Positions 16,427-42,945 of a stretch of 64,000 nt of DNA are shown here, one piece after another. The translations under genes were made by a program, and so were the position numbers. The notes below the pieces were generated by a model, which ran no database searches, was not told the origin of the DNA, and saw nothing but the letters and a program-made list of their open reading frames with translations. Source of the stretch: Bacillus sp. FJAT-22090 (GTDB taxonomy: Bacteria > Bacillota > Bacilli > Bacillales_A > Planococcaceae); the NCBI RefSeq assembly GCF_001278755.1, contig NZ_CP012601.1, positions 992,001 to 1,056,000 of the forward strand, written 5' to 3'. How positions within the stretch are numbered: the stretch's first letter is position 1; each line of letters opens with the position of its first letter.

Positions 16427-16452
16427 TTCGAAAATGGAAAGAGGTGACTTGC

Positions 16453-16953: not shown

Positions 16954-16969
16954 AGCGAGGAGAAGAATA

Positions 16970-18048: not shown

Positions 18049-18060
18049 GGAGGTCGTTGC

Positions 18061-18834: not shown

Positions 18835-18848
18835 GGAGAGCTGAGCAC

Positions 18849-20366: not shown

Positions 20367-20378
20367 AAATAAACTGAA

Positions 20379-20420
20379 AATACGGACAGGGAAAAATTCA
20401 AACCCTGTCCGTATTCTTTC
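20379..20420 (+). terminator. Terminator after the aldehyde dehydrogenase gene
   Basis: AATACGGACAGGG pairs with CCCTGTCCGTATT around an 11-base loop, followed by CTTTC. It separates paaK-ALDH from paaHJ, so the latter may have their own start or depend on read-through. Confidence 0.8.
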
Positions 20421-20443
20421 ATTAACATAAGGGGAGTAGAATA

Positions 20444-21316: not shown

Positions 21317-22518
21317 GAGAAGTAGTCATAGTAGATGCTGTCCGTACGCCTATTGGAAGATACAACGGATCACTAAGAGAAGTTCGACCAGATGATTTAG
21401 GAGCTATTGTTATTAAAGCACTTGTTGAACGTAATCCGAACCTCTCCGTAAAGGAAATTGAAGAAGTTGTTTTCGGGAATGCAAACCAAGCAGGTGAAGA
21501 TAACCGCAACGTTGCAAGAATGTCGGCATTGTTAGCTGGTCTACCTGTCGAAGTAGCAGGAACAACTATAAACCGTCTCTGTGGTTCTGGACTTGACGCT
21601 GTTATGTACGCTGCAAGAGCAATATCAGTTGGCGAAGGCGATATTTACATCGCTGGTGGCACTGAAAGCATGACGCGAGCACCGTTTGTCATGGCAAAGC
21701 CAGATAGAGAGTTCCCACGAGGAAATATGGAACTGCAAGATACAACAATCGGGTGGCGTTTTACAAATAAAAAACTGAAAGTGATGTACGGTGTAGATAC
21801 GATGCCAGAAACTGCCGAAAATGTTGCAAAGCGATTTCATATAACGCGGGAGGATCAGGATTTATTTGCATTCGAGAGCCAGCAACGTGCTAAAAAAGCT
21901 TTGGCAGAAAATCGATTTGCGGAAGAAATCGTTCCAGTTATGTATAAGGACCGGAAAGGGAATGAAATCATTGTCGACCAAGATGAGCATCCAAGACCAA
22001 ATACAACGTTACATCAGCTTGGAAAACTAAAACCATTATATGAAGGTGGTACGGTTACACCAGGTAACGCTTCGGGAGTCAATGACGGTGCATCTGCTTT
22101 ACTTCTTATGAGTGCGGAAAAAGCAAAAGAACTGAATGTGAAGCCATTAGCAAAATATGTTACAGGTGCAACAGCGGGACTTGAACCAGCTGTTATGGGG
22201 CTTGGTCCTATTTTCGCTTCAAAAAAAGCACTACAACGTGCAGGGTTGAAAACAACTGACCTTGGTCTTGTAGAATTGAATGAAGCTTTTGCTTCACAAT
22301 CTCTGGAGTGCATTCGCCAACTAGAATTAGAAAGTGAAAAAGTGAATGTCAATGGAGGAGCAATAGCTTTTGGACACCCTCTAGGTGCGAGTGGTGCTCG
22401 AATAGTAACGACACTTTTATATGAAATGAAGAAAAGAAATGTTCAATTCGGATTGGCGACAATGTGTATCGGCGTAGGTCAAGGGATTGCAACTATATTT
22501 GAGAATGTATCAGAGTAG
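21313..22518 (+). CDS. paaJ: 3-oxoadipyl-CoA thiolase
   Basis: 401 residues. Nucleophilic Cys in NRLCGSGLDAVMYAA, GHPLGASGARIVTTL with the catalytic His, and the second Cys in TMCIGVGQG. It would split 3-oxoadipyl-CoA (and the dehydrosuberyl intermediate) into acetyl-CoA and succinyl-CoA. Translationally coupled to paaH. Confidence 0.93.
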   Translation: MREVVIVDAVRTPIGRYNGSLREVRPDDLGAIVIKALVERNPNLSVKEIEEVVFGNANQAGEDNRNVARMSALLAGLPVEVAGTTINRLCGSGLDAVMYAARAISVGEGDIYIAGGTESMTRAPFVMAKPDREFPRGNMELQDTTIGWRFTNKKLKVMYGVDTMPETAENVAKRFHITREDQDLFAFESQQRAKKALAENRFAEEIVPVMYKDRKGNEIIVDQDEHPRPNTTLHQLGKLKPLYEGGTVTPGNASGVNDGASALLLMSAEKAKELNVKPLAKYVTGATAGLEPAVMGLGPIFASKKALQRAGLKTTDLGLVELNEAFASQSLECIRQLELESEKVNVNGGAIAFGHPLGASGARIVTTLLYEMKKRNVQFGLATMCIGVGQGIATIFENVSE

Positions 22519-22675
22519 GTACTAGAATTTTGCTGTCCTTCAAGCGTCAAAGCTCTTTAAAAGAAGAGCAACAACGAGAGAAGGGCAATTTTTATAACTA
22601 ATTCAAGATGTTCTTGCAACGAAAACAAAGCGACCTGAGAAATTCACTATAGTTGTTCGAATAGGAGATGTCATA

Positions 22676-23452
22676 ATGATGAATATTTTATTAAGAAAAG
22701 AAAACAACATTGCATATATCACCATTAATCGCGAAGAAGCCCTGAACTGTTTTAATTATGATACATTGCATCAGCTTCAACAAGTAGTAGATGCTATCTC
22801 AATTGATCCGGAAGTGAAAGTGATTATATTTACTGGAGCAGGGGATAGATCTTTTAGTGCTGGTGCCGATTTGAAAGAGCGGAAAACATTAAAAGAATCA
22901 GAAGTTAGGAGAAACGTGAAAGCGATACGAGATGTGTTCAACAGTATCGCAAATCTGCCACAGCCAACTATAGCTGCAGTCAATGGGTATGCATTTGGCG
23001 GAGGCTTTGAACTGATGATTGCGTGTGATTTTTCCATTGCAGCTGAAGGAGTGAAAATGGGTCTAACTGAAACAAGCTGGGCAATCATACCAGGAGCAGG
23101 TGGGACGCAAAGATTACCAAGATTAGTAGGGGAAATGAGAGCGAAAGAGCTGATTTTCACTGCAAGAAAATTCACGGCAGAAGAAGGGGTCCAGCTTGGA
23201 GTGGTATTAAAAGTAGTCCAAATAGAAAATCTTCTGAAGTCTTGTGAACAACTTGCAAACGATATTATGAAAAATGGTCCTGTAGCAATTAAACAAGCGA
23301 AGTATGCAATTACACAAGGAATGAATACCGACTTGCATACAGGGCTTGCAATCGAGTCTAAGGCATACGAATTAACGATCCCAACTGAGGATCGCATGGA
23401 AGCGTTACTTGCATTCAGTGAGAAAAGGAATCCTGTCTTTTTAGGGAAATAA
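22676..23452 (+). CDS. Enoyl-CoA hydratase, second paralogue
   Basis: 258 residues, start ATGATG behind AGGAGATG. Both catalytic glutamates are present (FGGGFELMIACD, GLTETSWAIIPGAGG). It differs clearly in sequence from the hydratase at 17272 and stands between the thiolase and paaX, with a 157-base gap upstream that holds no gene. One of the two hydratases may be PaaF; the other could take over ring hydrolysis or another beta-oxidation step. Confidence 0.88.
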   Translation: MMNILLRKENNIAYITINREEALNCFNYDTLHQLQQVVDAISIDPEVKVIIFTGAGDRSFSAGADLKERKTLKESEVRRNVKAIRDVFNSIANLPQPTIAAVNGYAFGGGFELMIACDFSIAAEGVKMGLTETSWAIIPGAGGTQRLPRLVGEMRAKELIFTARKFTAEEGVQLGVVLKVVQIENLLKSCEQLANDIMKNGPVAIKQAKYAITQGMNTDLHTGLAIESKAYELTIPTEDRMEALLAFSEKRNPVFLGK

Positions 23453-23537
23453 TTAGTAAACTCTAATAACAAAATAATGAAAGAAGGGAAGAAACGTGTT
23501 ATATTGGAATTCAGGAAAAAAGAAAGAGTGAGTTTAC

Positions 23538-24416
23538 ATGTCGAATACACAATCAATGATATTTACAATTTACGGTGATTATATCCGTCATTACGGAAAT
23601 AAAATATGGATCGGAAGCTTAATCCGACTGCTAAAAGAGTTTGGACATAATGAACAGTCGGTACGAGTAGCGGTTTCAAGAATGATGAAACAAGGTTGGC
23701 TCGAGTCCGAGAAGGAAGGGAATAAAAGTTATTACTTTTTGACGACACGTGGTGAAGCTCGGATGGAAGAAGCTGCCATTCGGATTTTTAAATTAATGCC
23801 AAACGACTGGGATGGAAAATGGCGTATGCTAATGTATACGATTCCAGAAGAAAAAAGACAAGTTCGAGATGAACTACGAAAAGAGCTTTTATGGAGTGGA
23901 TTCGGCAGTTTTTCTAGTGGATGCTGGATCTCACCGAACAATCTTGAAAAAGAGGTTGAATTTCTTATAGAAAAATATGGTATACAAAATTATGTAGATT
24001 TCTTCGTAGCAGACTACAAAGGTCCTCAAGCAAACAGAGCTCTTGTTGAAAAAAGTTGGCCGCTTCAAGAAATTGAAGGAAAATATCAAGATTTTATCTC
24101 TACCTACAGCAAACAATATATAATCCATCGGAGCATGATGAACGATGGAAGAATGTCGGATGCAGAATGTTTTGTTGAACGAACAAATCTTGTACATGAA
24201 TACCGTAAGTTTCTATTTTCTGATCCTGGTCTTCCAAAGGAACTGTTACCAGAAATATGGAGTGGTAACCATGCAGCTCTTTTATTTGAGCAATATTATA
24301 AATTGCTTGCACAGCCAGCAAATCATTTTTTCGAAGAAGTATTCCAAGAAGATAATGATTTGCGTCGTAAGGACAAAGCATATGATGCAGATGATCATCC
24401 ACTTCTTATGGACTAA
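23538..24416 (+). CDS. paaX: Transcriptional repressor of phenylacetate catabolism
   Basis: 292 residues. The N-terminal winged helix (YGDYIRHYGNKIWIGSLIRL, SVRVAVSRMMKQGWLESE) and the central IPEEKRQVRDELRKELLWSGFG and LPKELLPEIWSG segments identify PaaX. In characterised systems it represses paa genes and is released by phenylacetyl-CoA. Being the last gene of the cluster and followed by a terminator, it likely controls both paaK-side operons; operator candidates are at 11368, 14220 and 26643. Confidence 0.93.
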   Translation: MSNTQSMIFTIYGDYIRHYGNKIWIGSLIRLLKEFGHNEQSVRVAVSRMMKQGWLESEKEGNKSYYFLTTRGEARMEEAAIRIFKLMPNDWDGKWRMLMYTIPEEKRQVRDELRKELLWSGFGSFSSGCWISPNNLEKEVEFLIEKYGIQNYVDFFVADYKGPQANRALVEKSWPLQEIEGKYQDFISTYSKQYIIHRSMMNDGRMSDAECFVERTNLVHEYRKFLFSDPGLPKELLPEIWSGNHAALLFEQYYKLLAQPANHFFEEVFQEDNDLRRKDKAYDADDHPLLMD

Positions 24417-26707: not shown

Positions 26708-26721
26708 TGTAAGCGTTTACA
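26708..26721. promoter_or_regulatory. CcpA catabolite-repression (cre) box
   Basis: TGTAAGCGTTTACA matches the cre consensus TGNAANCGNNNNCA at every fixed position and is nearly palindromic. Located 86 bases upstream of the thioesterase start, it should place the thioesterase-PheDH-dehydrogenase operon under glucose repression. Confidence 0.82.
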
Positions 26722-26806: not shown

Positions 26807-27232
26807 ATGAGAAGCGGAATGGAAATAGGCAGAGAAGAGACTATACAAATATCAGTAACAGAGGATATGTTTGCATCTTTTGAAGGGAAAATAGTTCATC
26901 CTGTCTATTCAACGGTAACAATGACATATCATATGGAGTGGGTTTCCAGGAAAATTATTCTTCCATTTTTAGAAGACCAGGAAGAAGGAATGGGAGCATC
27001 CGTAAAGCTAAGTCATATAGCGCCTTCCCCACTCGGTACGGTAGTTACGCTAACTGCAACTTTAGTTGATGTACAGGACAATGTAGTACTGACAAAAATT
27101 GTGGCATCCAACCAATTAGGTATTATTGGTAAAGGTGAAGTGAAACAAGTTATTTTACCTAAAAAAACAATAGCTGAAAAACTAAGAAATGCTTCCATAT
27201 TTCCAGAGAAAGAAGAAACTATTTTAGACTAG
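26807..27232 (+). CDS. FlK-like hotdog thioesterase
   Basis: 141 residues. The pattern VHPVYSTVTMTYHMEWVSRK, then GMGASVKLSHIAPSPLGTVV matches the fluoroacetyl-CoA thioesterase (FlK) branch of hotdog enzymes, with Thr, Glu and His candidates for the catalytic triad. It is the first gene of an operon whose next members make arylpyruvates and, probably, arylacetyl-CoA. I infer that it hydrolyses 4-hydroxyphenylacetyl-CoA to the free acid needed by HpaB, or relieves phenylacetyl-CoA excess. Start ATG 26807 behind AGAGGTG. Confidence 0.8.
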   Translation: MRSGMEIGREETIQISVTEDMFASFEGKIVHPVYSTVTMTYHMEWVSRKIILPFLEDQEEGMGASVKLSHIAPSPLGTVVTLTATLVDVQDNVVLTKIVASNQLGIIGKGEVKQVILPKKTIAEKLRNASIFPEKEETILD

Positions 27233-27259
27233 AAAGTAATTCCTTAGGGGGTATAAAGG

Positions 27260-28408
27260 GTGATAATGGCTGAAAAAATGGCAATAACAAAAGAATTTGA
27301 TCTTTTCGAGAAGATGGCGAAACATGAACAAGTGGTTTTTTGTAACGATCCATCTACTGAATTGCGTGCAATTATTGCAATCCATAATACAACGCTTGGC
27401 CCAGCACTTGGTGGATGTCGTATGCAACCATATAGTAGTGTGGATGAAGCGCTAGAAGATGCTCTTCGTCTTTCAAAAGGAATGACTTATAAATGCGCAG
27501 CTGCTGATGTCGATTTCGGAGGCGGGAAAGCAGTAATTATTGGTGATCCTAAAACAGATAAATCACCGGAATTATTCCGCGCATTCGGCCAATTTGTAAA
27601 CTCTCTAGGTGGACGTTTTTATACGGGTACCGATATGGGGACGACAATGGATGATTTCATTCATGCAATGAAAGAAACGAATTTCATTAACGGACTTCCA
27701 GAAGAATATGGTGGAGGTGGCGATTCTTCTGTACCAACTGCCGCTGGTGTTTTGTATGGCATCAAAGCAACCAATCAATTGTTGTATGGAAATGATGACT
27801 TGGGTCAACATAGTTATGCGATTCAGGGATTAGGTAAGGTAGGGTTTAAAGTTGCAAAAGGACTTCTGGAAGCTGGTGCTCGCATTTTCGTAACAGATAT
27901 TAATAAAGATAGCCTTCGAGCAATCGAAGAAGTAGCTGCAAAAACAACTGGCAAAGTTCAGTTTGTTGAAAATGATGATATTTATTCCCAAGAAGCAGAT
28001 ATATTCGTTCCATGTGCATTTGGAGGGATTATTAACGACACTACAATTCCTCATTTTAAAGTGAAAGCAATTGTAGGATCGGCTAACAATCAATTATTAG
28101 AAGATAGACATGGAAGATTATTGAGAGATAATGGGATTTTGTATGCACCGGATTACATTGTCAATTCTGGTGGTCTTATTCAAGTGGCAGATGAATTGTA
28201 CGGTATAAATCTTGAGCGTGTACTTGCAAAAACGAAACATATTTACGATGTAATGTTGGAAGTGTATAAAGATGCTGCGAGCAGCGGAAAAACAACAGAG
28301 GAATCAGCGAATGCAATGTGTGAAAAAAGAATAGCAGATCGAAGCAAACGGAATAGCTTTTACTCAGCACCAGCGAAACCAAAATGGTCGTTTAGCAAAC
28401 TATCCTAA
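27260..28408 (+). CDS. Phenylalanine dehydrogenase
   Basis: 382 residues. It matches what I recall of the Lysinibacillus/Sporosarcina enzyme over most of its length: [40 protein letters not shown] with the catalytic Lys, [33 protein letters not shown] (NAD-binding), [21 protein letters not shown]. The reaction is reversible NAD-dependent deamination of L-phenylalanine to phenylpyruvate. Leucine/valine dehydrogenases are the closest alternatives. GTG 27260 is taken as start (AGGGGG upstream); ATG 27266 is also possible. E1 alpha follows after 15 bases. Confidence 0.9.
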
Positions 28409-28423
28409 TGGGAGGCGAGTTAA

Positions 28424-29479
28424 GTGGAAGATAACTACCCTATAAAAAGAATCATAGACGATCAAGGATATCTTGTTGATACGGGATTTGAAAAACAAAT
28501 AGATGAGCAATTGGTTCAAGACCTTTACTATCACATCTTACGAATTCGTACTTTTGATAGAAAAGCGATTAACTTGCAACGACAAGGACGTTTGGGTACT
28601 TATGCCCCTTTTGAAGGACAGGAAGCTGCTCAAGTTGGTAGCGCACTCGCATTAAAAGCTGGAGACTGGGTTTTCCCAACTTATCGAGATCATGGTGCGA
28701 CAATTACATTCGGAAAAAGTATGGCTAGAACGTTTTTGTATTGGAATGGGAGAGTAGAGGGCTGTGTAGCACCGCAAGATAGAAATATATTCCCACCCGC
28801 TGTTCCTATTGCAACTCAACTACCTCATGCGGCAGGAGCTGCTTGGGCTGAGAAGAGAAGAGGAACACAAAATGCAGCAATTGCTTATTTCGGGGACGGT
28901 GCAACTTCGGAAGGTGATTTTCATGAAGGTTTGAATTTTGCGAGTGTATTTAAAGTACCAGTTGTCTTTTTTAACCAAAATAATGGATATGCGATTTCAG
29001 TCCCGATTGAAAAACAAATGAATTCTGAGACGATAGCTCAAAAATCAGTTGCTTATGGTATACCAGGGGTTCGAATCGATGGAAATGATTGTTTCGCAGT
29101 ATATTTTGAAACAAAAAAAGCTTTTGACAATGCTCGAGGTGGAAATGGCCCAACATTGATAGAAGCAGTTACTTGGCGAAAAGGTGCACACACGACAGCT
29201 GATGATCCGTCAAAATACCGTCCTGAAAAACAAGGGGAGGATTTTGTTGACCCATTAACAAGATTAGAACTGTTTATGAAAAATTACGGCTACTGGAATG
29301 ATGAATGGATCCAAGCAACTAAAGATAAAACGAGCAGTGAAGTTGAAGCGGCTGTTGAAGAAATGGAAAAGTTTCCTCCGCCGAACTTAGAAGACGTTTT
29401 TAATCATGTATATGCTGAAATGCCAGCTCAACTTGTTGAACAAAAAGAATCGTACCTTGCACATCTAGGGAGGCGGTAA
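28424..29479 (+). CDS. 2-Oxoacid dehydrogenase E1 alpha
   Basis: 351 residues, GTG start behind GGAGGCG. The thiamine-diphosphate motif GDG-N(x)-NN is seen in YFGDGATSEGDFHEGL and VFFNQNNGYAIS; the phosphorylation-loop region KGAHTTADDPSKYR is also kept. By sequence it is closer to PdhA/branched-chain E1 alpha than to AceE. Encoded directly after phenylalanine dehydrogenase with E1 beta, E2 and E3 in a tight row. I infer phenylpyruvate and 4-hydroxyphenylpyruvate as substrates, giving arylacetyl-CoA. Confidence 0.9.
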   Translation: MEDNYPIKRIIDDQGYLVDTGFEKQIDEQLVQDLYYHILRIRTFDRKAINLQRQGRLGTYAPFEGQEAAQVGSALALKAGDWVFPTYRDHGATITFGKSMARTFLYWNGRVEGCVAPQDRNIFPPAVPIATQLPHAAGAAWAEKRRGTQNAAIAYFGDGATSEGDFHEGLNFASVFKVPVVFFNQNNGYAISVPIEKQMNSETIAQKSVAYGIPGVRIDGNDCFAVYFETKKAFDNARGGNGPTLIEAVTWRKGAHTTADDPSKYRPEKQGEDFVDPLTRLELFMKNYGYWNDEWIQATKDKTSSEVEAAVEEMEKFPPPNLEDVFNHVYAEMPAQLVEQKESYLAHLGRR

Positions 29480-29482
29480 TGA

Positions 29483-30499
29483 ATGGCACAAATAAAAGAG
29501 TCAGTTACAAAAAATGAAACGACAAAGCAGTTGACCTTAATTCAAGCTATTAATGATGGTATGCGACTCCTGTTAGAAGAGGATGATCGAACCATTATTC
29601 TTGGAGAAGATATCGGAAAGAACGGCGGGGTATTCCGAGCGACTGAAGGACTACAAGAAACATTTGGTGATGATAGAGTAGTAGACACTCCACTGTCAGA
29701 AGCAGGGATTATCGGAACGTCAATTGGTCTTGCGGTGAACGGTTTTAGACCGATTGCAGAAATCCAATTCCTCGGTTTTATTTATCCTGCTTACGAGCAG
29801 ATCATGACACATGTCTCACGAATTCGAATGCGTTCGATGTCCCGTTTTACAGTGCCAATGGTTATTCGAGCACCATACGGGGCTGGAATACGCGCACCCG
29901 AGATACATTCTGATAGTACTGAAACCTTATTCACACATATGCCTGGCATTAAGGTCGTTTGCCCTTCAAATCCTTACGATGCAAAAGGATTGTTAATTGC
30001 TGCCATGGAAGATCCTGATCCAGTATTGGTTTTGGAGCCAATGAAAAACTATCGTTCGAAGAGAGAAGAAGTACCTGTTGGAAAATATACGGTGAAAATT
30101 GGTAAAGGAAAAATTGTGCGTGAAGGTACGGATGTAACACTAATTGCTTGGGGAGCGATGATATCGATTGCAGAGAAAGCAGCTGAATTGGCTGCGCTAA
30201 AGGGAATTAGTTGTGAAATTATTGATCTAAGAACATTGTATCCAATTGATCGTGACATAATAGCTAACTCTGTAAAAAAGACAACAAGAGCAGTTATTAT
30301 TCATGAAGCTCAAAATACTGGAGGATTAGGTAATGATATCGTGTCGATTATTAACGATACAGCCTTCCTTTATTTACGAGCTCCAATTGAACGAATTACG
30401 GGATTTGACGTACCGGTTCCATTCTTTGCATTAGAAGAACATTATCTACCAACACCGGCAAGAGTCGTTGAGGGAATTGAAAAAGTGGTTCATTTTTAA
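29483..30499 (+). CDS. 2-Oxoacid dehydrogenase E1 beta
   Basis: 338 residues. TLIQAINDGMRLLLEEDDRT, LGEDIGKNGGVFRATEGL, RMRSMSRFTVPMVIRAPYG, HSDSTETLFTHMPGIKVV and HEAQNTGGLGNDIV are standard E1 beta blocks. It completes the alpha2-beta2 decarboxylase with the preceding gene, three bases away. The start codon follows AGGGAGGCGGTAATGA. Confidence 0.92.
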   Translation: MAQIKESVTKNETTKQLTLIQAINDGMRLLLEEDDRTIILGEDIGKNGGVFRATEGLQETFGDDRVVDTPLSEAGIIGTSIGLAVNGFRPIAEIQFLGFIYPAYEQIMTHVSRIRMRSMSRFTVPMVIRAPYGAGIRAPEIHSDSTETLFTHMPGIKVVCPSNPYDAKGLLIAAMEDPDPVLVLEPMKNYRSKREEVPVGKYTVKIGKGKIVREGTDVTLIAWGAMISIAEKAAELAALKGISCEIIDLRTLYPIDRDIIANSVKKTTRAVIIHEAQNTGGLGNDIVSIINDTAFLYLRAPIERITGFDVPVPFFALEEHYLPTPARVVEGIEKVVHF

Positions 30500-30511
30500 G
30501 GAGGATATGGA

Positions 30512-31732
30512 ATGCTCGAAGTAAAGCTGCATGATGTCGGGGAAGGAATGACCGAAGGAGAAGTACTTCATTACTTAGTGAAGGTCGGAGATTCGGTTAT
30601 GACTGATCAACCACTTGTAGAAGTACAAACAGACAAAATGGTTGCTGAACTTACTTCTCCTTGCTCAGGCATCGTTAAAGAAATTCGTATTGATGAAGGT
30701 GAAGTTGTACAGGTCGGAACAAGTTTACTCTACATTGAATCCGATGAATCTGTACGGACGGAACAAAAATTACATGTAGAAATGAATCCAGTTTCAGAAA
30801 TGAAAGGGAAGTCTACGAATAACAATGAAGAAAAAGCTCTTCCGATGACTTATAAACGAGTGCTTGCTACTCCATACACACGCAAAATTGCACGCGACAA
30901 TAACATTAATATTGAAGATGTCCGTGCTACAGATCCATCTGGAAGAGTAACAGAGGAAGATGTTTTTCGATTCTTGAAAGGAATACAATTAACTGAGGAA
31001 TCAGTAAAGGATGAAAAGCAAACAGTATTTTCTCAAGAAATACCCGATGAAATTCCTTTTAAAGGGATTCGCAAGAAGATTGCAGAAAAGATGACGAAAT
31101 CACTCTTTACAATTCCCCATGTCACTCATTTTGACGAAGTCAATATGACAAACTTACTTGAATTGAAAGAGCAAATGAAAGCATCTGGAGAATCAATCAG
31201 TGTCCCAGCATTTCTTATTAAAGCACTTGTTATTTCATTAAAGGAATTCCCTATATTCAATGCGGAACTCGATGAAGAAAATAGCAGGATACTACTAAAG
31301 AAAAACTATCATATCGGTATCGCGACAAACACAGAAAGTGGTTTAATGGTCCCGGTTATTCATCATGTCGATAAGAAATCAATTAAACAGATTAACAAAG
31401 AGGTCAAAGGGTTAACAGAAAGAGCAATTGCAGGTAAACTACAACCATTTGAAATGAAAAATAGTACCTTTACAGTGAGTAATGTTGGACCTTTAGGAAG
31501 TACAGGAGCTACCCCAATTATCAACTATCCTGAAACCGCTCTGATTGCTTTTCACAAAACAAAAAAACAACCAATTGTCAATTCTCATGATGAAATCGTA
31601 ATAGGCCATATTATGACATTTTCTATGGCGTTTGACCACCGTGTAGCGGATGGCGCTACGGCAGTTGAATTTACGAACCGGTTTGTAGGTTTGATTGAAC
31701 AGCCACATAAACTGATGTTGGAGTTGATATAA
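30512..31732 (+). CDS. 2-Oxoacid dehydrogenase E2 (dihydrolipoyl acyltransferase)
   Basis: 406 residues. One lipoyl domain at about 1-76 (lipoyl Lys in VQTDKMVAEL), a peripheral subunit-binding domain at about 115-155 (ATPYTRKIARDN, DPSGRVTEEDV) and the catalytic core from about 185 ending with the active-site FDHRVADGA. The single lipoyl domain and length resemble branched-chain E2. It transfers the acyl group to CoA. Ribosome site AAGGAGGAT. Confidence 0.92.
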   Translation: MLEVKLHDVGEGMTEGEVLHYLVKVGDSVMTDQPLVEVQTDKMVAELTSPCSGIVKEIRIDEGEVVQVGTSLLYIESDESVRTEQKLHVEMNPVSEMKGKSTNNNEEKALPMTYKRVLATPYTRKIARDNNINIEDVRATDPSGRVTEEDVFRFLKGIQLTEESVKDEKQTVFSQEIPDEIPFKGIRKKIAEKMTKSLFTIPHVTHFDEVNMTNLLELKEQMKASGESISVPAFLIKALVISLKEFPIFNAELDEENSRILLKKNYHIGIATNTESGLMVPVIHHVDKKSIKQINKEVKGLTERAIAGKLQPFEMKNSTFTVSNVGPLGSTGATPIINYPETALIAFHKTKKQPIVNSHDEIVIGHIMTFSMAFDHRVADGATAVEFTNRFVGLIEQPHKLMLELI

Positions 31733-31733
31733 A

Positions 31734-33176
31734 ATGGTTGTTGGAGAAATCAGTCAAGAGCGGAATCTTATAATTATCGGGGGAGGGCCAGGTGGCTACA
31801 GTGCTGCCATACGGGCTGCACAGCTTGGTCTTACGGTCTCGTTAATTGAACAGGCTGATATGGGGGGTGTCTGTTTGAATAATGGTTGTATCCCCTCCAA
31901 AGTTTTTACACATGCAGCATCAAAATTATCAGAAACCGCTCATCTAAACAGCCTTGGAATTGGAAGTTCAGAAATGCTCTTCGATTTCAAAAAGCTAAGC
32001 TCTTATAAATCGAATATTATTAATCAGCTTAGGTCAGGTGTAGAAGGTTTGTGTAAGGAAAATAAAATCGAAATTATACGTGGAAAAGCTACATTCCTAT
32101 CTGTTGATAAAATCGGAGTAGAAAATGGACATCAATTCGATATTTATACATTTGAGCAACTCATTATTGCAACTGGTAGTAACCTGATAACCCCTGATGT
32201 TAGGAAAGAGAAAGATCCAAGGGTTTTATTGGCACATGAAATATATAAGATGGATAAGATTCCAGAGCATCTCATTGTAAGAGGGCAAGATTATATTGCA
32301 CTTGAGATTGCTTCTAGCTTTGCGGTATTAGGGGCTCATGTCAGTATTGTAATAGATGGTAAAATAGGTCTTCCTTTCGATGAATCTCTAAATAAAGAAT
32401 TAACTCGCTTGTTTAAAAAGCGAAAAATAAAAATGTATAAAGAAGTGGATTTCATTGCAAAACATGAGACTGAAGAAGATATTTCTATTACCTTTATATC
32501 GGATAGAAATGAAGTAGAGACAATTAGTGGATCTCATCTATTTGTTTCGGAAATAAGGAAGCCTAATTTGGAGGAGCTAGGAATAATCCGCTTCGGAATT
32601 GAACTTACCTCAGAAGGATTTATTAAGATTGACAAAGATATGAAATCATCATTCCCTTCTATATATGCAATTGGTGATATAACTGGTGGTCCTATGCTCG
32701 CTGGAAAAGCTATTAAACAAGGAAAAGCTGCAGCTGCATCCATTGCTGGAATACAAACAGAAGTTGATCTGACATTTATGCCAGTTGTTGCGCATACCAT
32801 TCCACCAGTCGTTTCAGTGGGGCTAACGGAACAAAGTGCACGTGATATAGGGATAGATATTCGTGTTAGCCAATTTGCTCTTGGTGGTAATGGTTATGCA
32901 ACAATTACAGGGAAAAAGGATGGATTTATTAAAGTTATTTCAGATTCAACAACTGAAATAATACAAGGCATTCATATGATAGGAGAAGGGGCGGTTGAAA
33001 TGTCTGGCTCCTTTGTCCAGTTGCTTGAAATGGCAGCGAAAGAAGAGGATATTATTTTTCCACACTATGCGCATCCAGGATACAATGAAGGACTCCTTGA
33101 AGTAGTAGAGGGGTTAGTTGGACAAGCAATTCATACTTCACCAATGAAAAAAAAAGACTTAACGAAGATTTCATAA
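31734..33176 (+). CDS. Dihydrolipoyl dehydrogenase (E3), NAD site unusual
   Basis: 480 residues. FAD-binding GGGPGGYSAAIRAAQLG, redox pair in GGVCLNNGCIPSK, second FAD motif AIGDITGGPMLAGKA, and the C-terminal HYAHPGYNE base. The NAD-binding loop, normally GGGYIGLE, reads RGQDYIALE, losing two of the three glycines, and the later VAIGRRPN block reads VSEIRKPN. The enzyme may bind NAD poorly, use another partner, or depend on the cell's main E3. It starts one base after the E2 stop. Confidence 0.88.
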   Translation: MVVGEISQERNLIIIGGGPGGYSAAIRAAQLGLTVSLIEQADMGGVCLNNGCIPSKVFTHAASKLSETAHLNSLGIGSSEMLFDFKKLSSYKSNIINQLRSGVEGLCKENKIEIIRGKATFLSVDKIGVENGHQFDIYTFEQLIIATGSNLITPDVRKEKDPRVLLAHEIYKMDKIPEHLIVRGQDYIALEIASSFAVLGAHVSIVIDGKIGLPFDESLNKELTRLFKKRKIKMYKEVDFIAKHETEEDISITFISDRNEVETISGSHLFVSEIRKPNLEELGIIRFGIELTSEGFIKIDKDMKSSFPSIYAIGDITGGPMLAGKAIKQGKAAAASIAGIQTEVDLTFMPVVAHTIPPVVSVGLTEQSARDIGIDIRVSQFALGGNGYATITGKKDGFIKVISDSTTEIIQGIHMIGEGAVEMSGSFVQLLEMAAKEEDIIFPHYAHPGYNEGLLEVVEGLVGQAIHTSPMKKKDLTKIS

Positions 33177-33319: not shown

Positions 33320-34294
33320 ATGAAAAACGGTTGGAAAAAAATGTTGGCTGTTCTTTTCAGTTATACGCTAATTCTTGCGGCATGTAGTGATGGAGGGGAA
33401 AAAGAGGCATCTTCGAAGAAATATAAAATAGGCGTTACTCAGATTGTTGAACACCCTTCCCTAAATGCGGCTTTCGATGGCTTTAAAAAGGCTTTAGAAG
33501 ATGCAGGAATCAATGCGGAATATGAGGTTCAAAACGCTCAAGGTGATAATAGTTCTAATACGACAATCGCAACGAATCTTGTTAGTGCAAATGTAGATCT
33601 AATTTTTGCAAACTCAACACCGAGTGCTCAAGCAGTAGCTAGTGCTACATCAGAAATCCCTATCGTTTTCACTTCAGTAACAGATGCAGTTGGAGCTGAG
33701 CTTGTAGACTCAATGGAAAAACCAGGTGGTAATGTAACTGGCACGATTGATGCTCATCCTGATGCAATTACCAATACAATGAAGTTCCTTAAAGACGAAT
33801 TGGGAGCAAAAAATGTTGGAATGGTGTTTAACTCTGGAGAGCAAAATTCTCGTGCTCAAGTAGATGCAGTAAAAGAAATGTTGAAAGATATGAATATGTC
33901 TGTAGTGGAAGCTTCTGTTGCAACATCTGCAGACGTGAAACAAGCAACAGAATCATTAATCGGTAAAGTAGACTCGATGTATATCATTACCGATAACACA
34001 GTTGTTTCCGCTCTTGAATCTGTAATTTCAGTAGCAAATGAAAATAAAATTCCAATGATGGTAGGCGAATTTGACTCCGTAAAACGAGGAGGCCTAGCAG
34101 CATACGGCTTTGAATATTTTGACATTGGATACGAAGCAGGACAAATGGCTGTCAAAATCTTAAAAGGGGAAAGTAAACCAGCTGACTTGCCTGTTCAAAT
34201 TCCGCAAAAGCTTAAATTGATAATGAATAAAGACACAGCATCTACCTTAGGACTTGACGTAAAAGACGAATGGAAAGCCGAGTTTAGTGAATAA
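33320..34294 (+). CDS. ABC transporter substrate-binding lipoprotein (TrpX-type)
   Basis: 324 residues with a signal peptide and lipobox LILAAC (Cys at about residue 22), so the mature protein is membrane-anchored outside. The body matches the PF04392 family (KIGVTQIVEHPSLNAAFDGF, IFANSTPSAQAVASAT, VFTSVTDAVGAEL, MVFNSGEQNSRAQVD) used by TrpXYZ-like importers. With the next two genes it forms a complete importer lying between the two aromatic modules; phenylalanine or tyrosine uptake is the natural inference. Confidence 0.88.
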   Translation: MKNGWKKMLAVLFSYTLILAACSDGGEKEASSKKYKIGVTQIVEHPSLNAAFDGFKKALEDAGINAEYEVQNAQGDNSSNTTIATNLVSANVDLIFANSTPSAQAVASATSEIPIVFTSVTDAVGAELVDSMEKPGGNVTGTIDAHPDAITNTMKFLKDELGAKNVGMVFNSGEQNSRAQVDAVKEMLKDMNMSVVEASVATSADVKQATESLIGKVDSMYIITDNTVVSALESVISVANENKIPMMVGEFDSVKRGGLAAYGFEYFDIGYEAGQMAVKILKGESKPADLPVQIPQKLKLIMNKDTASTLGLDVKDEWKAEFSE

Positions 34295-34311
34295 ATAGGA
34301 GTTGATTCTAC

Positions 34312-35361
34312 ATGTTTTCAGCAATGTTTGGCTCAGTGGAGCAAGGAATCATCTATGCAATAATGGCACTTGGTGTGTATTTATCATTCCGAGTTTTAGA
34401 TTTTCCAGATTTAACAGTTGACGGGAGTTTTGTAACAGGAGCCGGAGTTGCTGCCACGATGATTGTCCTAGGATATCATCCGGCAGCTGCTACGGCAGTT
34501 GCTATAGTTATCGGATTTCTTGCTGGATGTGTAACCGGCTTCCTACATACAAAAGGAAAAATAAATGCACTATTATCTGGAATATTGATGATGATAGCTT
34601 TGTATTCTATTAATCTACGCATAATGGGGCTGACTTCTGCAAATTCCATTGGTCGTCCGAATATACCGTTATTAAATGCCGAAACAATATTTATTCAATT
34701 CCAAACTTTTTGGAGTTCTTTAGGTATCGATAGTAACATTAATCATTTTTTCAGCATGATGGGAGTTCAATACTTGCCTTCTACTTGGGGTACATTGTTC
34801 ATCATGATCATTATCGTTTTACTCATTAAGTTTATCGTCGACTGGTTTTTAAAAACCGAAGTGGGTCTTGCAATTAGAGCTACTGGTGATAACAAGAAAA
34901 TGATTCGAAGTTTATCTGCTAATACTGACACACTTGTAATTGTTGGTCTTGGATTTTCAAATGCACTAGTTGCTTTTTCAGGCGCTCTAATTGCTCAATA
35001 TGCAAAGTTTGCGGACATCGGAATGGGAATCGGAATGATTATTATCGGACTTGCTTCAGTCATTATTGGTGAGGCGGTATTTGGTACGAAAACAATATTG
35101 CGAACAACCTTTGCAGTAATTGCGGGAGCTATTATTTATAGAATTGTACTAGGTCTCGCACTTAGAGTGGATTTACTTGATACAGGAGATATGAAATTAA
35201 TTACTGCTGTTATTGTAATTTGCGCGTTGATTTTACCGCAATACTTTGAAAAGAGGCGGGAAAAAAATAGAAAAGCTAAACGCCATGCGGAACGGCAAAT
35301 GGAACATGAACACTTACTCTTGAGGGAGGGAAATGCCATTGCTAAAGCTCAGTCAGATTAA
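34312..35361 (+). CDS. ABC transporter permease (TrpY-type)
   Basis: 349 residues, eight or nine hydrophobic helices, of the LivH/branched-chain permease superfamily: FRVLDFPDLTVDGSFVTGAG near the start, KINALLSGILMMIALYSINL, IRATGDNKKMIRSL coupling segment. A charged C-terminal tail (RREKNRKAKRHAERQMEHEH) overlaps the ATPase start. Confidence 0.88.
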   Translation: MFSAMFGSVEQGIIYAIMALGVYLSFRVLDFPDLTVDGSFVTGAGVAATMIVLGYHPAAATAVAIVIGFLAGCVTGFLHTKGKINALLSGILMMIALYSINLRIMGLTSANSIGRPNIPLLNAETIFIQFQTFWSSLGIDSNINHFFSMMGVQYLPSTWGTLFIMIIIVLLIKFIVDWFLKTEVGLAIRATGDNKKMIRSLSANTDTLVIVGLGFSNALVAFSGALIAQYAKFADIGMGIGMIIIGLASVIIGEAVFGTKTILRTTFAVIAGAIIYRIVLGLALRVDLLDTGDMKLITAVIVICALILPQYFEKRREKNRKAKRHAERQMEHEHLLLREGNAIAKAQSD

Positions 35362-36136
35362 TAAGTTATTTAATGAGGCAACACCAGATGAAAAAATTGC
35401 TTTAGATCAAATTAATCTAACGTTAAACCCTGGAGATTTCATGACTGTGATTGGTAGCAATGGTGCTGGAAAATCGACGATGCTGAATATGATTTCAGGC
35501 GCTCTTACTCCTGATTTTGGTGAAATTGAAATAGCGAATAAAAACGTTACAAAAATGCCGGAATATAAACGCTCACAAATGATCGGAAGGGTATTTCAAG
35601 ACCCAATGGCTGGAACTGCACCTACGATGACCATCGAGGAAAACTTGGCGATGGCTTATTCGCGAAACAAAAAACGTAGATTAAAAAATGGAGTTGACAA
35701 GAAGCGGCGAGAGTTGTTCCGAACATCACTTGAAACTCTTCATTTAAACCTTGAAAATCGGTTGAATGCAAAAGTAGGAATGCTTTCTGGAGGGGAGAGG
35801 CAAGCGCTTTCTCTATTGATGGCTACATTTACGCAACCATCTATTTTACTTCTGGACGAACATACTGCAGCACTAGACCCATCCCGAGCGGAAGTAATTA
35901 CGAATTTAACAAAGCAGCTTGTTGAAAAGGATCAACTTACTACGCTAATGATCACACATAATATGCAACAAGCGTTAGACCTCGGGAACAGGCTTATTAT
36001 GATGGATAAAGGACAGATCATTCTAGAAATTGAAGCGGAGGAAAAGAAAAAACTAACCATTGCTAAACTAATGGATGAATTCCAACGTATTCGTGGTGAG
36101 AAATTAACTAGTGATAAAGCATTGTTATCCGTTTAA
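35339..36136 (+). CDS. ABC transporter ATPase (TrpZ-type)
   Basis: 265 residues from TTG 35339, which is well spaced from GGGAGGG; ATG 35333, two codons earlier, is closer to it than usual. Walker A GSNGAGKST, Q-loop VFQDPMAGT, signature MLSGGERQALSL and Walker B LLLDEHTAALDP are all present. It powers the importer formed with the two preceding genes and overlaps the permease gene by 23 bases. Confidence 0.9.
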   Translation: MLKLSQINKLFNEATPDEKIALDQINLTLNPGDFMTVIGSNGAGKSTMLNMISGALTPDFGEIEIANKNVTKMPEYKRSQMIGRVFQDPMAGTAPTMTIEENLAMAYSRNKKRRLKNGVDKKRRELFRTSLETLHLNLENRLNAKVGMLSGGERQALSLLMATFTQPSILLLDEHTAALDPSRAEVITNLTKQLVEKDQLTTLMITHNMQQALDLGNRLIMMDKGQIILEIEAEEKKKLTIAKLMDEFQRIRGEKLTSDKALLSV

Positions 36137-36226: not shown

Positions 36227-36344
36227 TTTCTATCTGTAAATACTCCAATTCAAAGCTTTAGTAGACTTAGAAGCTTACGTTTTTCATATAGTATTTCTTA
36301 GGAAATAAATTGTTGTTAGCAAGATGGAAAAAGGAGTGAAGCGT

Positions 36345-37136
36345 TTGAGCCGAGCTAGTTTTAAAGTGTTGGGGGAACCCGTATTAATAAAAGCGGAAGT
36401 GAATGCACATAAGAATACTGTTGTGATAGAGGACTACGAGTTAATACCGAATGAAATCCAGTTTGACAACCCGATTACAGGAACTGTTTATGGGACAATG
36501 CTGAATTATAAAGGTGAACTTGAAAGATTAGGTGATGATGTAAATAACGAACCTTATTTTTCGCCTCCAATCGCTCCTGTCCTTTATATAAAACCTGTGA
36601 ATACGTTCAATTGTTATGGTGGTTCAATACCGATGCCAATAGGGATATCGAAATTAGAAATGGGAGCGGCTCTCGGAATAGTTATAGGAAAGCAAGCGGT
36701 AGTTGTGGATGAATCTACTGCATTATCTTATGTGGCAGGGTACACGATCGTAAACGATGTTCGAATACCGCATGATAGCTTATATCGGCCAGCGATTCAT
36801 TTTCAAGCAAGAGATGGTTTCTGTCCAATTGGGCCATGGATTATCGATCGTCATGGAGTAGAAAATCCAGATAACGTATCAATCCGCGTATTCATTAATG
36901 ATAAACTCCAGCAAGAAAATTCAACATCCAATTTAGTTCGTTCCGTCTCACGGTTACTTGCGGATGTGACCGAGTTTATGACATTAAATCCAGGAGATGT
37001 GTTACTCGTAGGTGTCCCTGAAGACGCACCGCAAGCAAAGGTAGGAGATAAAATTCGAATTGAAATTGACGGTATTGGTAGCTTAGAAAACGTAATTGTT
37101 GATGAAAGCGAGTCAAAATGGAGGAAGCCAATATGA
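36345..37136 (+). CDS. FAH-family protein, HpaG N-domain-like, degenerate metal site
   Basis: 263 residues from TTG 36345 (AAAGGAGTGA upstream); the in-frame ATG 36324 has no ribosome site. It belongs to the fumarylacetoacetate-hydrolase superfamily, like the first half of E. coli HpaG (decarboxylase/isomerase of the homoprotocatechuate route): GPWIIDRHGVENPDNV, SVSRLLADVTEFMTLNPGDVLLVGVPE. The E-x-E metal pair, intact in the next gene (HYECELAVIIG), aligns here with MGAALGIVIG and is lost. It may be a partner subunit or have another activity such as the missing hydratase step. It overlaps the next gene by four bases. Confidence 0.8.
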   Translation: MSRASFKVLGEPVLIKAEVNAHKNTVVIEDYELIPNEIQFDNPITGTVYGTMLNYKGELERLGDDVNNEPYFSPPIAPVLYIKPVNTFNCYGGSIPMPIGISKLEMGAALGIVIGKQAVVVDESTALSYVAGYTIVNDVRIPHDSLYRPAIHFQARDGFCPIGPWIIDRHGVENPDNVSIRVFINDKLQQENSTSNLVRSVSRLLADVTEFMTLNPGDVLLVGVPEDAPQAKVGDKIRIEIDGIGSLENVIVDESESKWRKPI

Positions 37137-37891
37137 GAAGAGCACGAGTAGCATATGGGGGTGCCATCCATGAAGCAATTGAATGGGGAAATCAACTCAA
37201 ATTAGCGGATGGTCGAGTAGTCAAAGAAGACGAAATAATGTGGCTTACGCCGATAGAGCCTCGAACAGTGTTTGCATTAGGGCTTAACTATGCGGATCAT
37301 GCAGCAGAGCTTTCATTTGATGCACCATCAGACCCCCTTGTCTTTTTGAAAGGACCAAATACGTTGATAGGTCACCAAGCATATACACGTCGCCCAGCAG
37401 ATGTCACTTATATGCATTATGAGTGTGAATTAGCTGTAATCATCGGTGAAACAGCTAGAAATGTCCAAAAAGAAGATGCCTATAAATATGTAAAAGGCTA
37501 CAGTGTCGCCAATGATTATGCGATAAGAGATTATTTAGAAAACTACTACCGTCCCAACTTGCGTGTGAAAAATCGAGATACATGTACACCATTAGGACCA
37601 TGGTTAGTCGACGTTATGGATATTGCCGATCCGATGAATCTAAGATTAACAACACATGTTAATAGCGAATTAGTCCAAGAAGGAACAACAGCGGATATGA
37701 TTTTTGATATTCCATCAATTATTGAGTATTTAAGTAGCTTTATGACGTTGAGTGAAAATGATGTCATTCTAACAGGTACTCCTAAAGGATCGGTTAATAC
37801 AGTAGTCGGAGATGTTGTCGTCACAGAAATAGAAGGAATTGGTCGCTTGGTAAATACGATTATCGGGGATGAGGCCTTTACAAATCGATAG
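37133..37891 (+). CDS. hpaG: HpaG-type decarboxylase/isomerase, FAH family
   Basis: 252 residues from ATG 37133, with GGAGG ten bases upstream and ATGA overlap with the preceding gene. LGLNYADHAAEL, FLKGPNTLIGHQ, YMHYECELAVIIGETARNV (metal-binding E-x-E), NDYAIRDY and TGTPKGS are the standard FAH-fold blocks. It should decarboxylate 5-oxopent-3-ene-1,2,5-tricarboxylate and/or isomerise the product in 4-hydroxyphenylacetate breakdown. HpaG1 and HpaG2 are separate here rather than fused. Confidence 0.88.
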   Translation: MRRARVAYGGAIHEAIEWGNQLKLADGRVVKEDEIMWLTPIEPRTVFALGLNYADHAAELSFDAPSDPLVFLKGPNTLIGHQAYTRRPADVTYMHYECELAVIIGETARNVQKEDAYKYVKGYSVANDYAIRDYLENYYRPNLRVKNRDTCTPLGPWLVDVMDIADPMNLRLTTHVNSELVQEGTTADMIFDIPSIIEYLSSFMTLSENDVILTGTPKGSVNTVVGDVVVTEIEGIGRLVNTIIGDEAFTNR

Positions 37892-37910
37892 TGCGAAAAG
37901 GAGGGTCTAT

Positions 37911-38300
37911 ATGCCACATTTTATTGTCGAGTTTACGGATAATATTAAGGATGAGGCGAATCTTGGAAAGTTGTTTGAGGAAATTCATAACGTGCTCATT
38001 ACACAGAATAATGTTTTTCCAGTTGGTGGAATCCGTTCAAGAGCGATTGAACTAAATGAGTACAGAGTGGCTGATGGTACGGAAGATGATGCTTTCGTTC
38101 ATGCAGTCTTAAAAATTGGTGCCGGTCGTTCGGAGGAAATAAAAAAAGAAGTGTGTTCTACAATATTTGAAATAATGAAGGAACACTTCTCCCAATTGAT
38201 GGAGAATAGGTATCTAGCATTGTCCATGGAACTAATCGAATTTAGTGAAGCCGGTACTTATAAACATAATAATATTCACGCTAGATTTATAAATAAGTAG
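37911..38300 (+). CDS. hpaF: 5-Carboxymethyl-2-hydroxymuconate isomerase
   Basis: 129 residues from ATG 37911 behind AAAAGGAGGG. Pro2 (MPHFIVEFTDNI) is the catalytic base of this tautomerase-superfamily enzyme; GGIRSRAIEL and HAVLKIGAGRS are further HpaF blocks. It converts the muconate made by HpaE into the HpaG substrate. Confidence 0.9.
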   Translation: MPHFIVEFTDNIKDEANLGKLFEEIHNVLITQNNVFPVGGIRSRAIELNEYRVADGTEDDAFVHAVLKIGAGRSEEIKKEVCSTIFEIMKEHFSQLMENRYLALSMELIEFSEAGTYKHNNIHARFINK

Positions 38301-38307
38301 TAATCAT

Positions 38308-38333
38308 CTAGTTCAATAGAGTGAAGTAACTAG
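38308..38333. promoter_or_regulatory. Small inverted repeat before hpaB
   Basis: CTAGTT and AACTAG are separated by 14 bases, 54 bases before the hpaB start. Possible operator; no regulator gene for the hpa cluster is visible. Confidence 0.3.
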
Positions 38334-38386
38334 TATAAAAATGAAGATAAATTGGAAATGTTTATCCGAAATTAGGAGGGAATAGT

Positions 38387-39868
38387 ATGGGGGCACGAAC
38401 TGGAAAAGAATATATAGAAGGTATAAAAAATCGGAAAACGGAAGTATGGATTCACGGAGAGAGAGTAGACGACGTAACGACACATCCAGCATTTAAAAAT
38501 GTTGTAGAAAGCGTAGCAGGTCTTTACGATTTGCAACACGAGAAACAAGAAAAAATGCTATATACCTCACCTACATCCGGAAAAAAAGTTGGGCTTTCAT
38601 TCATTACTCCTAAAACGAAAGAAGATCTGTTCAAAAGACGTGAAATGCATACCGAATGGGCAACTTTTTCTGGTGGTATGATGGGACGTTCTCCAGATTA
38701 TTTAAATACAAGTATTATGGCATTTGGTACTGCTAACCAATTTTTTGCTCAAGAAGGTGGAGGAAGTGACCAATTTGCTAAAAATGCAGCAGACTACTAT
38801 GAATATGCTCGTGAAAACGACATAAGTTTAACTCATACATTAATTCATCCACAAGTGAATCGATCCATGTTAACGCAGTCTGAACAAAAAGATCCGTATC
38901 TTTCCGCACGTATTACGAAAAAGACTCCAGATGGAATAATCGTAAATGGCTGTCGTCTCTTGGCAACATTAGGTGGGATTACGGATGAAATCGTTGTATT
39001 CCCTTCTACTATAAATAAAACACCTGGAACGATAGACGATCCATTTGCATTTGCATTTGCAATCCCAAATAATACTCCTGGTTTAAAATTCCTATCTCGT
39101 GAATCGTTTGACTATGGTAAAAGCAAATGGGATCATCCACTAGGTGCTAGGTTTGATGAGAGTGATGCAATCATTTCATTTGAAGATGTACTTGTCCCGT
39201 GGGAAAGAATTTTTGTGTGTGAGAGTACTGATATTTGTAATCGTACGTATGCCGAGACTAATGCAGTTATCCATATGACGCATCAAGTTATTTCTAAAAA
39301 TGTCGTAAAAACAGAGTTCATTTTAGGTGTAGTCATCAGTATGATGGAGGCAATTGGTATTGATAAATTCATGCATGTAAAAGAAAAAGCAAGTGAAATC
39401 ATGGTTATTTTAGAAGTGTTACGCTCTCACCTATATAAATCTGAACACAATGCAAAAATTGATCAATATGGCAATATGACGCCAGACTTTGAACCATTAA
39501 ATGCAGCGCGCAACTGGTTTCCAAAAATGTATCAGCGTATGCATGAAATCATAAAAATTCTAGGTGCATCAGGATTAATGGCGCTTCCAACTGAATCCGA
39601 TTTCAGCAATACAGATGTTGGTCCATTAGTACATCGTTACACTCAAGGTGCAAATATCAATGGTGAAGAAAGAGTACAACTATTCCGCTTAGCTTGGGAT
39701 ATTTCCATAAGTGCGTTCGGTAATCGTCAAGCACTCTACGAATACTATTTCTTTGGAGATCCAGTGAGAATGTCAAATGCTTATTATGATGGATTCGATA
39801 AGCAACCTTATAAAGACATGGTAACTAACTTTTTAAATAAAACGAAAAAAGAAGCCGGCATATTTTAA
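38387..39868 (+). CDS. hpaB: 4-Hydroxyphenylacetate 3-monooxygenase, oxygenase
   Basis: 493 residues of the two-component FADH2-dependent HpaB family (acyl-CoA dehydrogenase-like fold). Blocks seen: ARTGKEYIEGIKNRKTEVWIHGERVDDVTTHPAF, TEWATFSGGMMGRSPDYLN, THTLIHPQVNRS, LLATLGGITDEIVVFPS, VPWERIFVCE. It hydroxylates free 4-hydroxyphenylacetate to homoprotocatechuate using FADH2 from HpaC, encoded 41 bases downstream. Confidence 0.94.
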   Translation: MGARTGKEYIEGIKNRKTEVWIHGERVDDVTTHPAFKNVVESVAGLYDLQHEKQEKMLYTSPTSGKKVGLSFITPKTKEDLFKRREMHTEWATFSGGMMGRSPDYLNTSIMAFGTANQFFAQEGGGSDQFAKNAADYYEYARENDISLTHTLIHPQVNRSMLTQSEQKDPYLSARITKKTPDGIIVNGCRLLATLGGITDEIVVFPSTINKTPGTIDDPFAFAFAIPNNTPGLKFLSRESFDYGKSKWDHPLGARFDESDAIISFEDVLVPWERIFVCESTDICNRTYAETNAVIHMTHQVISKNVVKTEFILGVVISMMEAIGIDKFMHVKEKASEIMVILEVLRSHLYKSEHNAKIDQYGNMTPDFEPLNAARNWFPKMYQRMHEIIKILGASGLMALPTESDFSNTDVGPLVHRYTQGANINGEERVQLFRLAWDISISAFGNRQALYEYYFFGDPVRMSNAYYDGFDKQPYKDMVTNFLNKTKKEAGIF

Positions 39869-39909
39869 GCTTTTCATGCGCTATATATTAGTTGAAAGGA
39901 GATGGAATT

Positions 39910-40401: not shown

Positions 40402-40461
40402 CAATGGTTGGTACCTAGACTAAATAGATGAAAGAAGTTTACTTAAAAGGAGCAGATTCTA

Positions 40462-41385: not shown

Positions 41386-41425
41386 ATCACTACAAAATTA
41401 TCTTAAGAAAATAGGTGATGATAGT

Positions 41426-42937: not shown

Positions 42938-42945
42938 AGGAAGGA

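Follow-up and report, generated by a model that had tools for sequence, protein, structure and literature searches.

The comparative analysis presented here indicates that positions 26807-33176 of a 64-kb stretch of DNA (the window; G000:C1:992001-1056000, from a low-GC genome of 4.21 Mb in a single contig) very likely form an operon for aromatic amino acid catabolism that encodes its own, dedicated arylpyruvate dehydrogenase complex. Six + strand genes are found in this interval, specifying in order a FlK-family thioesterase, a phenylalanine dehydrogenase (PheDH) and the E1α, E1β, E2 and E3 subunits of the complex, with intergenic gaps from thioesterase to E3 of 27, 15, 3, 12 and 1 bases (Table 1). 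A first-pass annotation of the same DNA had described PheDH followed without gaps by the four subunits, and these five genes are indeed all intact, on the + strand and separated by the last four of those distances. The stretch does not open with PheDH, however, as 26807 is the start of the thioesterase gene, which had been overlooked. The placement next to paa genes was also right for the upstream side (whole paa region, 11543-25506), but a TrpX-type ATP-binding cassette (ABC) transporter and a full hpa cluster, which flank the operon downstream, had been missed. The gene order FlK-PheDH-E1α-E1β-E2-E3 was found again in about 20 genomes of the family that includes Sporosarcina and Paenisporosarcina, where the closest relatives by this locus are placed, and in many named Bacillales genera, meaning that the arrangement is not due to chance.

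In the scheme proposed here, PheDH would catalyse the oxidative deamination of phenylalanine and, judging from its pocket, of tyrosine to the corresponding arylpyruvate. The NAD-linked E1αβ-E2-E3 complex would then decarboxylate phenylpyruvate and transfer the arylacetyl group to coenzyme A (CoA), yielding phenylacetyl-CoA and NADH in a single step, and the product would be taken over by the PaaABC epoxidase with no need for free phenylacetate, phenylacetaldehyde or the phenylacetate-CoA ligase PaaK. Most likely, the same complex would convert 4-hydroxyphenylpyruvate to 4-hydroxyphenylacetyl-CoA, from which the FlK-type thioesterase would liberate 4-hydroxyphenylacetate, to be processed by HpaBC and the products of the hpa genes for ring cleavage. 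The scheme builds on what can be read directly from the genomes, namely the gene content, the catalytic motifs, the separation from the pyruvate and branched-chain complexes, the clade of its own, the co-occurrence with paaA, the loss of PaaK and the linkage to hpa alone where paa is missing. Based on comparative genomics, the complex very probably produces phenylacetyl-CoA from phenylpyruvate. Extending the scheme beyond the window, it seems fairly probable that in much of Bacillales one aryl-specific complex provides a common entry for phenylalanine and tyrosine catabolism, delivering phenylacetyl-CoA to Paa (with PaaK becoming dispensable) and 4-hydroxyphenylacetyl-CoA, through a dedicated hydrolase, to Hpa. 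Different lineages would have recruited unrelated enzymes as this hydrolase, namely FlK, a 4HBT hotdog protein or an alpha/beta esterase.

Distinction from the pyruvate and branched-chain complexes

E1αβ, E2 and E3 are encoded together and are recognised by Pfam and NCBIfam as the components of a lipoyl-dependent 2-oxoacid dehydrogenase complex. Reading of the sequences found the catalytic motifs intact (GDG...NN for thiamine diphosphate, ThDP, in E1α; the lipoyl DKM, the E3-binding domain and DHR in E2; CLNNGC and HP...E in E3). The genome has three E1α proteins of this type (PF00676), belonging to pdhABCD at 2.03 Mb, to a bkd operon at 0.72 Mb (bkdR-LeuDH-lpdV-bkdAA-AB-B, LeuDH standing for leucine dehydrogenase) and to the window complex, which is a third 2-oxoacid dehydrogenase, separate from the pyruvate (PDH) and branched-chain (BKD) complexes. 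Automatic annotation would nevertheless make it a second pyruvate dehydrogenase, with E1α scoring 464.8 bits against TIGR03181 (cut-off 411.35). This reading is highly improbable, considering that the genome already has an intact pdhABCD, that the window E1α is only about 41% identical to its pdh counterpart, which falls outside the ortholog clade, and that the presence of the complex tracks that of paaA. In a tree of 118 E1α proteins the orthologs form one clade of 84 (SH-aLRT 98), apart from both PDH and BKD; 65 of these 84 adjoin PheDH, and for 76 the locus includes at least one of PheDH, paa and hpa. Evidently, TIGR03181 is unable to tell this clade and PDH apart.

A second BKD that was recruited beside PheDH and accepts phenylpyruvate as a minor substrate would share with the window complex the overall architecture, fold and subunit type. 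However, the genome already possesses a LeuDH-linked bkd operon, a context (LeuDH/bkdR) that the window complex does not have, the E1α clade is far from BkdAA, and the PaaK pattern described below would be left without explanation, all of which renders such an origin very unlikely. The substrate pocket also argues against it. Four residues of the Thermus thermophilus BKD E1, located in the 1um9 chain (Phe66, Tyr95, Met128 and His131), are those that we take to line the branched-chain pocket, and three of the four positions differ in the ortholog clade: the Phe66 position is Thr in 82/82 sequences and the Met128/His131 segment is absent, with Tyr95 being retained. A smaller Thr in place of Phe66 would leave space for an aromatic ring, which is suggestive only, Thr being present also in some other E1 groups.

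The LeuDH-bkd operons, including the copy of this genome, follow the same logic as the window operon, that is, an amino acid dehydrogenase beside a four-part 2-oxoacid dehydrogenase. They differ from it in the clade of the complex, the LeuDH pocket, the bkdR regulator and the lack of a thioesterase and of aromatic genes. The absence of ptb and buk, to which the first-pass annotation had given weight as evidence, is uninformative because the genome's own bkd operon also goes without them.

Co-occurrence with the Paa pathway and loss of PaaK

Orthologs of the complex (at least 55% identity, the next values being 48-49% and below) were identified in 34 of 200 family genomes. Among these 34, 33 also had paaA, compared with 6 of the 166 genomes without the complex (Fisher p ~2e-30, not corrected for descent), and within five genera the two come and go together. 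Linkage alone does not explain this co-occurrence, since in five genomes (G002, G110, G185, G195 and G198) the complex is away from the paa locus, paaA being outside the fetched 20 kb.

The strongest evidence for phenylacetyl-CoA production by the complex comes from the pattern of PaaK. In a sample of the order comprising 56 paaA-positive genomes, PaaK was absent from 23 of the 48 with the complex and from none of the 8 without it (Fisher p=0.016), its state having changed 11 times on the E1α tree. In G153, which is not counted among the 23, paaK is frameshifted. In the seven PaaK-less paa clusters that were read, the gene is lacking at its syntenic position and the cluster holds no other ligase that could substitute for it, and 8 of the 43 paaA-positive named genomes reached by the collection scan were also without PaaK. 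If the complex did not make phenylacetyl-CoA, the PaaK-less species would be keeping an epoxidase pathway without a visible source of substrate; in these species, the complex appears to be the sole source. A dedicated phenylpyruvate-to-phenylacetyl-CoA complex, as originally suggested, is thus favoured by three observations: the E1 is a third paralog and lies beside PheDH, the complex co-occurs with paaA also where the two are not linked, and PaaK was lost repeatedly but never in the absence of the complex. The suggested bypass of PaaK likewise finds support in the comparative data, but the PaaK gene of the window is intact, so that the ligase would be bypassed here rather than replaced.

A recent event may be seen in a close relative (G153, L168:2778-4105), in which paaK lies in two fragments that are 96-98% identical to the window's gene, an apparent recent frameshift.

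In the Ehrlich-type route, phenylpyruvate is converted to phenylacetate by a decarboxylase and an aldehyde dehydrogenase, after which PaaK acts. The end product delivered to Paa is the same, but three enzymes and ATP are required, as opposed to the one NADH-yielding step of the window complex. None of the four ThDP enzymes above cut-off in the genome was recognised as an IpdC-type decarboxylase.

Phenylalanine dehydrogenase and its probable acceptance of tyrosine

Pfam assigns the PheDH product only to the Glu/Leu/Phe/Val dehydrogenase class, and its best solved structures are leucine dehydrogenases. Its earlier naming as a PheDH is borne out by the side-chain pocket, because it presents the pair Gly/Leu where the LeuDH of the genome's bkd operon has Ala/Val (LGNLV against LATVV). 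In the assayed Bacillus badius PheDH, the pocket residues include G123, V144, L306 and V309 (PMC8543943). The Gly and Leu of the window enzyme correspond to G123 and L306; the Gly is found in every dehydrogenase adjoining an E1α ortholog and the Leu in all except that of L140.

The residue of the window PheDH that aligns with B. badius V144 is Asn. According to Seah and colleagues, Asn145 of the B. sphaericus enzyme is reportedly what lets it accept tyrosine, and the window PheDH, judged from this residue, probably accepts tyrosine too. The Asn is present in 19/19 hpa-adjacent loci and in 1/48 others. This association with hpa adjacency is not significant by independent pairs, because the residue has only two independent origins. 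An association of residue 145 (Asn or Val) with hpa anywhere in the genome was also tried and fails, many Val genomes having hpaD.

Five loci (L049, L050, L052, L053 and L046, from G047, G072, G011, G030 and G107) have two PheDH genes flanking FlK. In these, the PheDH adjoining E1α has Asn at the tyrosine site and the other has Val, as if the two were split between tyrosine and phenylalanine.

The proposed tyrosine branch: hpa linkage and thioesterases

As for the substrate, phenylpyruvate stands as first suggested but is probably only part of the answer, because the thioesterase and the hpa cluster point to 4-hydroxyphenylpyruvate as a second one. Four sampled genomes, of Halobacillus (two species), Virgibacillus oceani and Salibacterium, are without paaA and PaaK, have hpaD, and carry the complex beside hpa genes. 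HpaD served as the hpa marker for the named genomes in place of HpaB, which was rejected as a presence marker on account of a widespread 45-50% paralog. Adjacency to hpa arose more than once on the E1α tree, and the neighbouring genes vary: in Halobacillus, Salibacterium and the paaA-containing B. piscicola, a class I/II aminotransferase precedes the complex and an alpha/beta esterase follows it or is near; in Sporosarcina L122, the complex is succeeded by a 4HBT hotdog thioesterase; and the FlK-PheDH-E1α-E1β-E2 series of Oceanobacillus L118 comes after hpa genes. Hydrolases beside hpa-linked complexes fit the scheme, because a 4-hydroxyphenylacetyl-CoA product would need to be hydrolysed before HpaBC could act.

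The window thioesterase is of the FlK type, with the PF22636 domain (E=7e-33) and T36, E44 and H70 invariant in 63 sequences, these residues presumably corresponding to the catalytic triad of FlK. Its context points to arylacetyl-CoA, not fluoroacetyl-CoA, and 4-hydroxyphenylacetyl-CoA is, on balance, its plausible substrate. That one complex serves both amino acids is likely, although the tyrosine branch is less certain than the phenylalanine branch. FlK was rejected as a sign of the tyrosine branch alone, being found also in paa-only loci.

The most serious alternative is that the complex acts on phenylpyruvate only, with the adjacent hpa genes being coincidental and FlK hydrolysing phenylacetyl-CoA or dead-end CoA esters of the Paa pathway in the manner of PaaI of other bacteria. 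In agreement with it, FlK and paa stand together with no adjoining hpa genes in the majority of Bacillaceae loci, and the genomic occurrence of hpaB or hpaD does not depend on that of the complex. We regard it as unlikely in view of the four paaA-less genomes with the complex beside hpa, the more than one origin of this adjacency, the distribution of the PheDH Asn and the fact that no homogentisate dioxygenase was found in the window's genome. The adjoining TrpX-like ABC system, which is linked to the complex in most loci, could alternatively suggest indole-3-pyruvate, from tryptophan, as the main natural substrate. This can hardly be considered probable: the TrpX model NF041285 gives 256 bits, below its family cut-off of 390, phenyl compounds are the common theme of PheDH, paa and hpa, and no genes for the catabolism of indoleacetate were recognised in the window.

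Some observations weigh against the complex as a dedicated entry point for both amino acids. Besides the match of E1α to the NCBI pyruvate dehydrogenase model, an unrelated CoA ligase elsewhere could cover the loss of PaaK, the PaaK-less genomes not having been searched for one, and the PaaK contrast includes few independent negatives because the 8 complex-less controls are mostly of one genus. On the tyrosine side, the discriminating Asn of PheDH has no more than two origins, with Val standing in its place in some genomes that have hpaD at another site, and the link of FlK to this branch is not exclusive, as FlK is encoded also at loci with no hpa genes next to it (L057, L059 and many Bacillaceae).

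Other arrangements of the complex were also noted. At L068:6213-6635, a 4HBT hotdog thioesterase, another unrelated hydrolase, lies beside an Lrp-linked, PheDH-less version of the complex. Sporosarcina sp. ACRSM (G291/G233, L122) has two E1α ortholog copies on one contig, one of them beside hpa, in a possible split between phenylalanine and tyrosine complexes. In halophiles (L119:13416-14846, L125, L127 and L129), an NhaC-type transporter adjoins the hpa-linked complex and is perhaps a carrier of aromatic amino acids or 4-hydroxyphenylacetate.

Relation to known systems

The open-access literature yielded no description of a lipoyl phenylpyruvate or arylpyruvate dehydrogenase complex for Bacillales or for amino acid catabolism, subscription journals being outside the search. 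A close precedent by description, not by sequence, is PglB/PglC of pristinamycin producers, termed phenylpyruvate dehydrogenase and proposed as the source of phenylacetyl-CoA for phenylglycine (PMC7089894, PMC10685826). In Streptomyces pristinaespiralis these are E1α and E1β subunits of the PDH type, whose proposed reaction leads from phenylpyruvate to phenylacetyl-CoA, and their operon also encodes a thioesterase (PglD). Unlike the window genes, they are actinobacterial, serve antibiotic biosynthesis, include only the E1 subunits in the operon and have no PheDH or adjoining paa or hpa genes. In Clostridium scatologenes, HpdDEFG-HpdJ-HpdK takes 4-hydroxyphenylpyruvate through 4-hydroxyphenylacetyl-CoA to free 4-hydroxyphenylacetate (PMC13285125), the same conversion via the CoA ester as proposed here. 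That system of a strict anaerobe is, however, ferredoxin-linked rather than a lipoyl complex, and CoA is released through an acyl phosphate and a kinase, yielding ATP.

If true, the scheme would give a physiological role to the phenylalanine dehydrogenases of bacilli, which have been biocatalysts for decades, and would represent an aerobic route by which phenylalanine and tyrosine reach ring cleavage without an aldehyde and at a saving of ATP. The "pyruvate dehydrogenase" annotation across many Bacillales genomes would also be corrected.

Regulation and genomic surroundings

Table 1. Position of the operon, its predicted control site and the flanking catabolic genes in the window
Feature	Position	Strand	Basis or remark
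Phenylacetate-CoA ligase PaaK, intact	11543..12883	+	TIGR02155 642.3 bits, cut-off 646.3
paa cluster	14298..24416	+	TIGR02156, TIGR02158, TIGR02277 above cut-off; PaaD domains
cre-like palindrome TGTAAGCGTTTACA (predicted CcpA site)	26708..26721	.	85 bases upstream of thioesterase start
FlK-family hotdog acyl-CoA thioesterase, 141 aa	26807..27232	+	PF22636 E=7e-33; candidate 4-hydroxyphenylacetyl-CoA / arylacetyl-CoA hydrolase
L-phenylalanine dehydrogenase	27260..28408	+	PF02812/PF00208; Gly/Leu pocket pair
E1α, putative arylpyruvate dehydrogenase complex	28424..29479	+	PF00676; TIGR03181 464.8 bits; own tree clade
E1β	29483..30499	+	PF02779 + PF02780; adjoins E1α in orthologous loci
E2 dihydrolipoyl acyltransferase	30512..31732	+	Lipoyl PF00364, E3-binding PF02817, catalytic PF00198
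E3 dihydrolipoyl dehydrogenase	31734..33176	+	TIGR01350 390.9 bits, slightly below 408.8 cut-off; PF07992 + PF02852
TrpX-type ABC uptake system, probable aromatic amino acid import	33320..36136	+	PF04392 E=3e-82; NF041285 256 bits
ABC substrate-binding protein	33320-34294	+	
ABC permease	34312-35361	+	
ABC ATPase	35333-36136	+	
hpa cluster	36324..43941	+	TIGR02305, TIGR02303, TIGR02309, TIGR02299, TIGR02295, TIGR02313 above cut-off

A perfect catabolite-responsive element (cre) precedes the thioesterase gene, as would be expected of a glucose-repressed catabolic operon. The motif TGWAANCGNTNNCA has a single match in the whole window, which is this site, and was present upstream of FlK in 17 of the 21 loci L039-L059, against a background of about 0.012 per 350 bases; it is not conserved beyond near relatives. 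No 9-mer was shared by three or more regions when an operator common to the paa, FlK and hpa promoters was sought, and a scan for sigma-70 promoters and terminators gave matches no more numerous than chance.

The paa cluster contains paaA, paaB (15270-15617), paaC, paaD, two enoyl-CoA hydratases, an aldehyde dehydrogenase, paaH, paaJ, a third hydratase and paaX, with PaaA, PaaC and PaaX scoring over the curated cut-offs. The hpa cluster is complete, comprising hpaG of N- and C-type, hpaF, hpaB, hpaC, an HpaI-type aldolase (DapA fold), hpaE and hpaD, of which HpaB, HpaD, HpaE, HpaG and the aldolase score over theirs. No PaaE was recognised at the paa region of the window, and a thioredoxin-reductase/ferredoxin-NADP-reductase-like gene together with a ferredoxin-like reading frame (CIACGSCG, without the usual start codon), located before paaA at 12899-14297, may therefore supply electrons to the epoxidase. 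A nitronate monooxygenase/FabK-like flavoprotein with no obvious Paa or Hpa role (25591-26556) is encoded between paaY and FlK at the majority of paa-linked loci, in various genera.

Further upstream, about 4 kb before the paa cluster, a 574-aa pyridoxal phosphate-dependent decarboxylase (PF00282, 5461-7185) has a distant likeness to tyrosine decarboxylases, and a c-di-GMP-I riboswitch (2801-2887, 86 bits) precedes a 122-aa open reading frame at 3014. The catabolic region as a whole is flanked by a tyrosine recombinase (9877-10590) and an IS3-type transposase pair (56744-58110).

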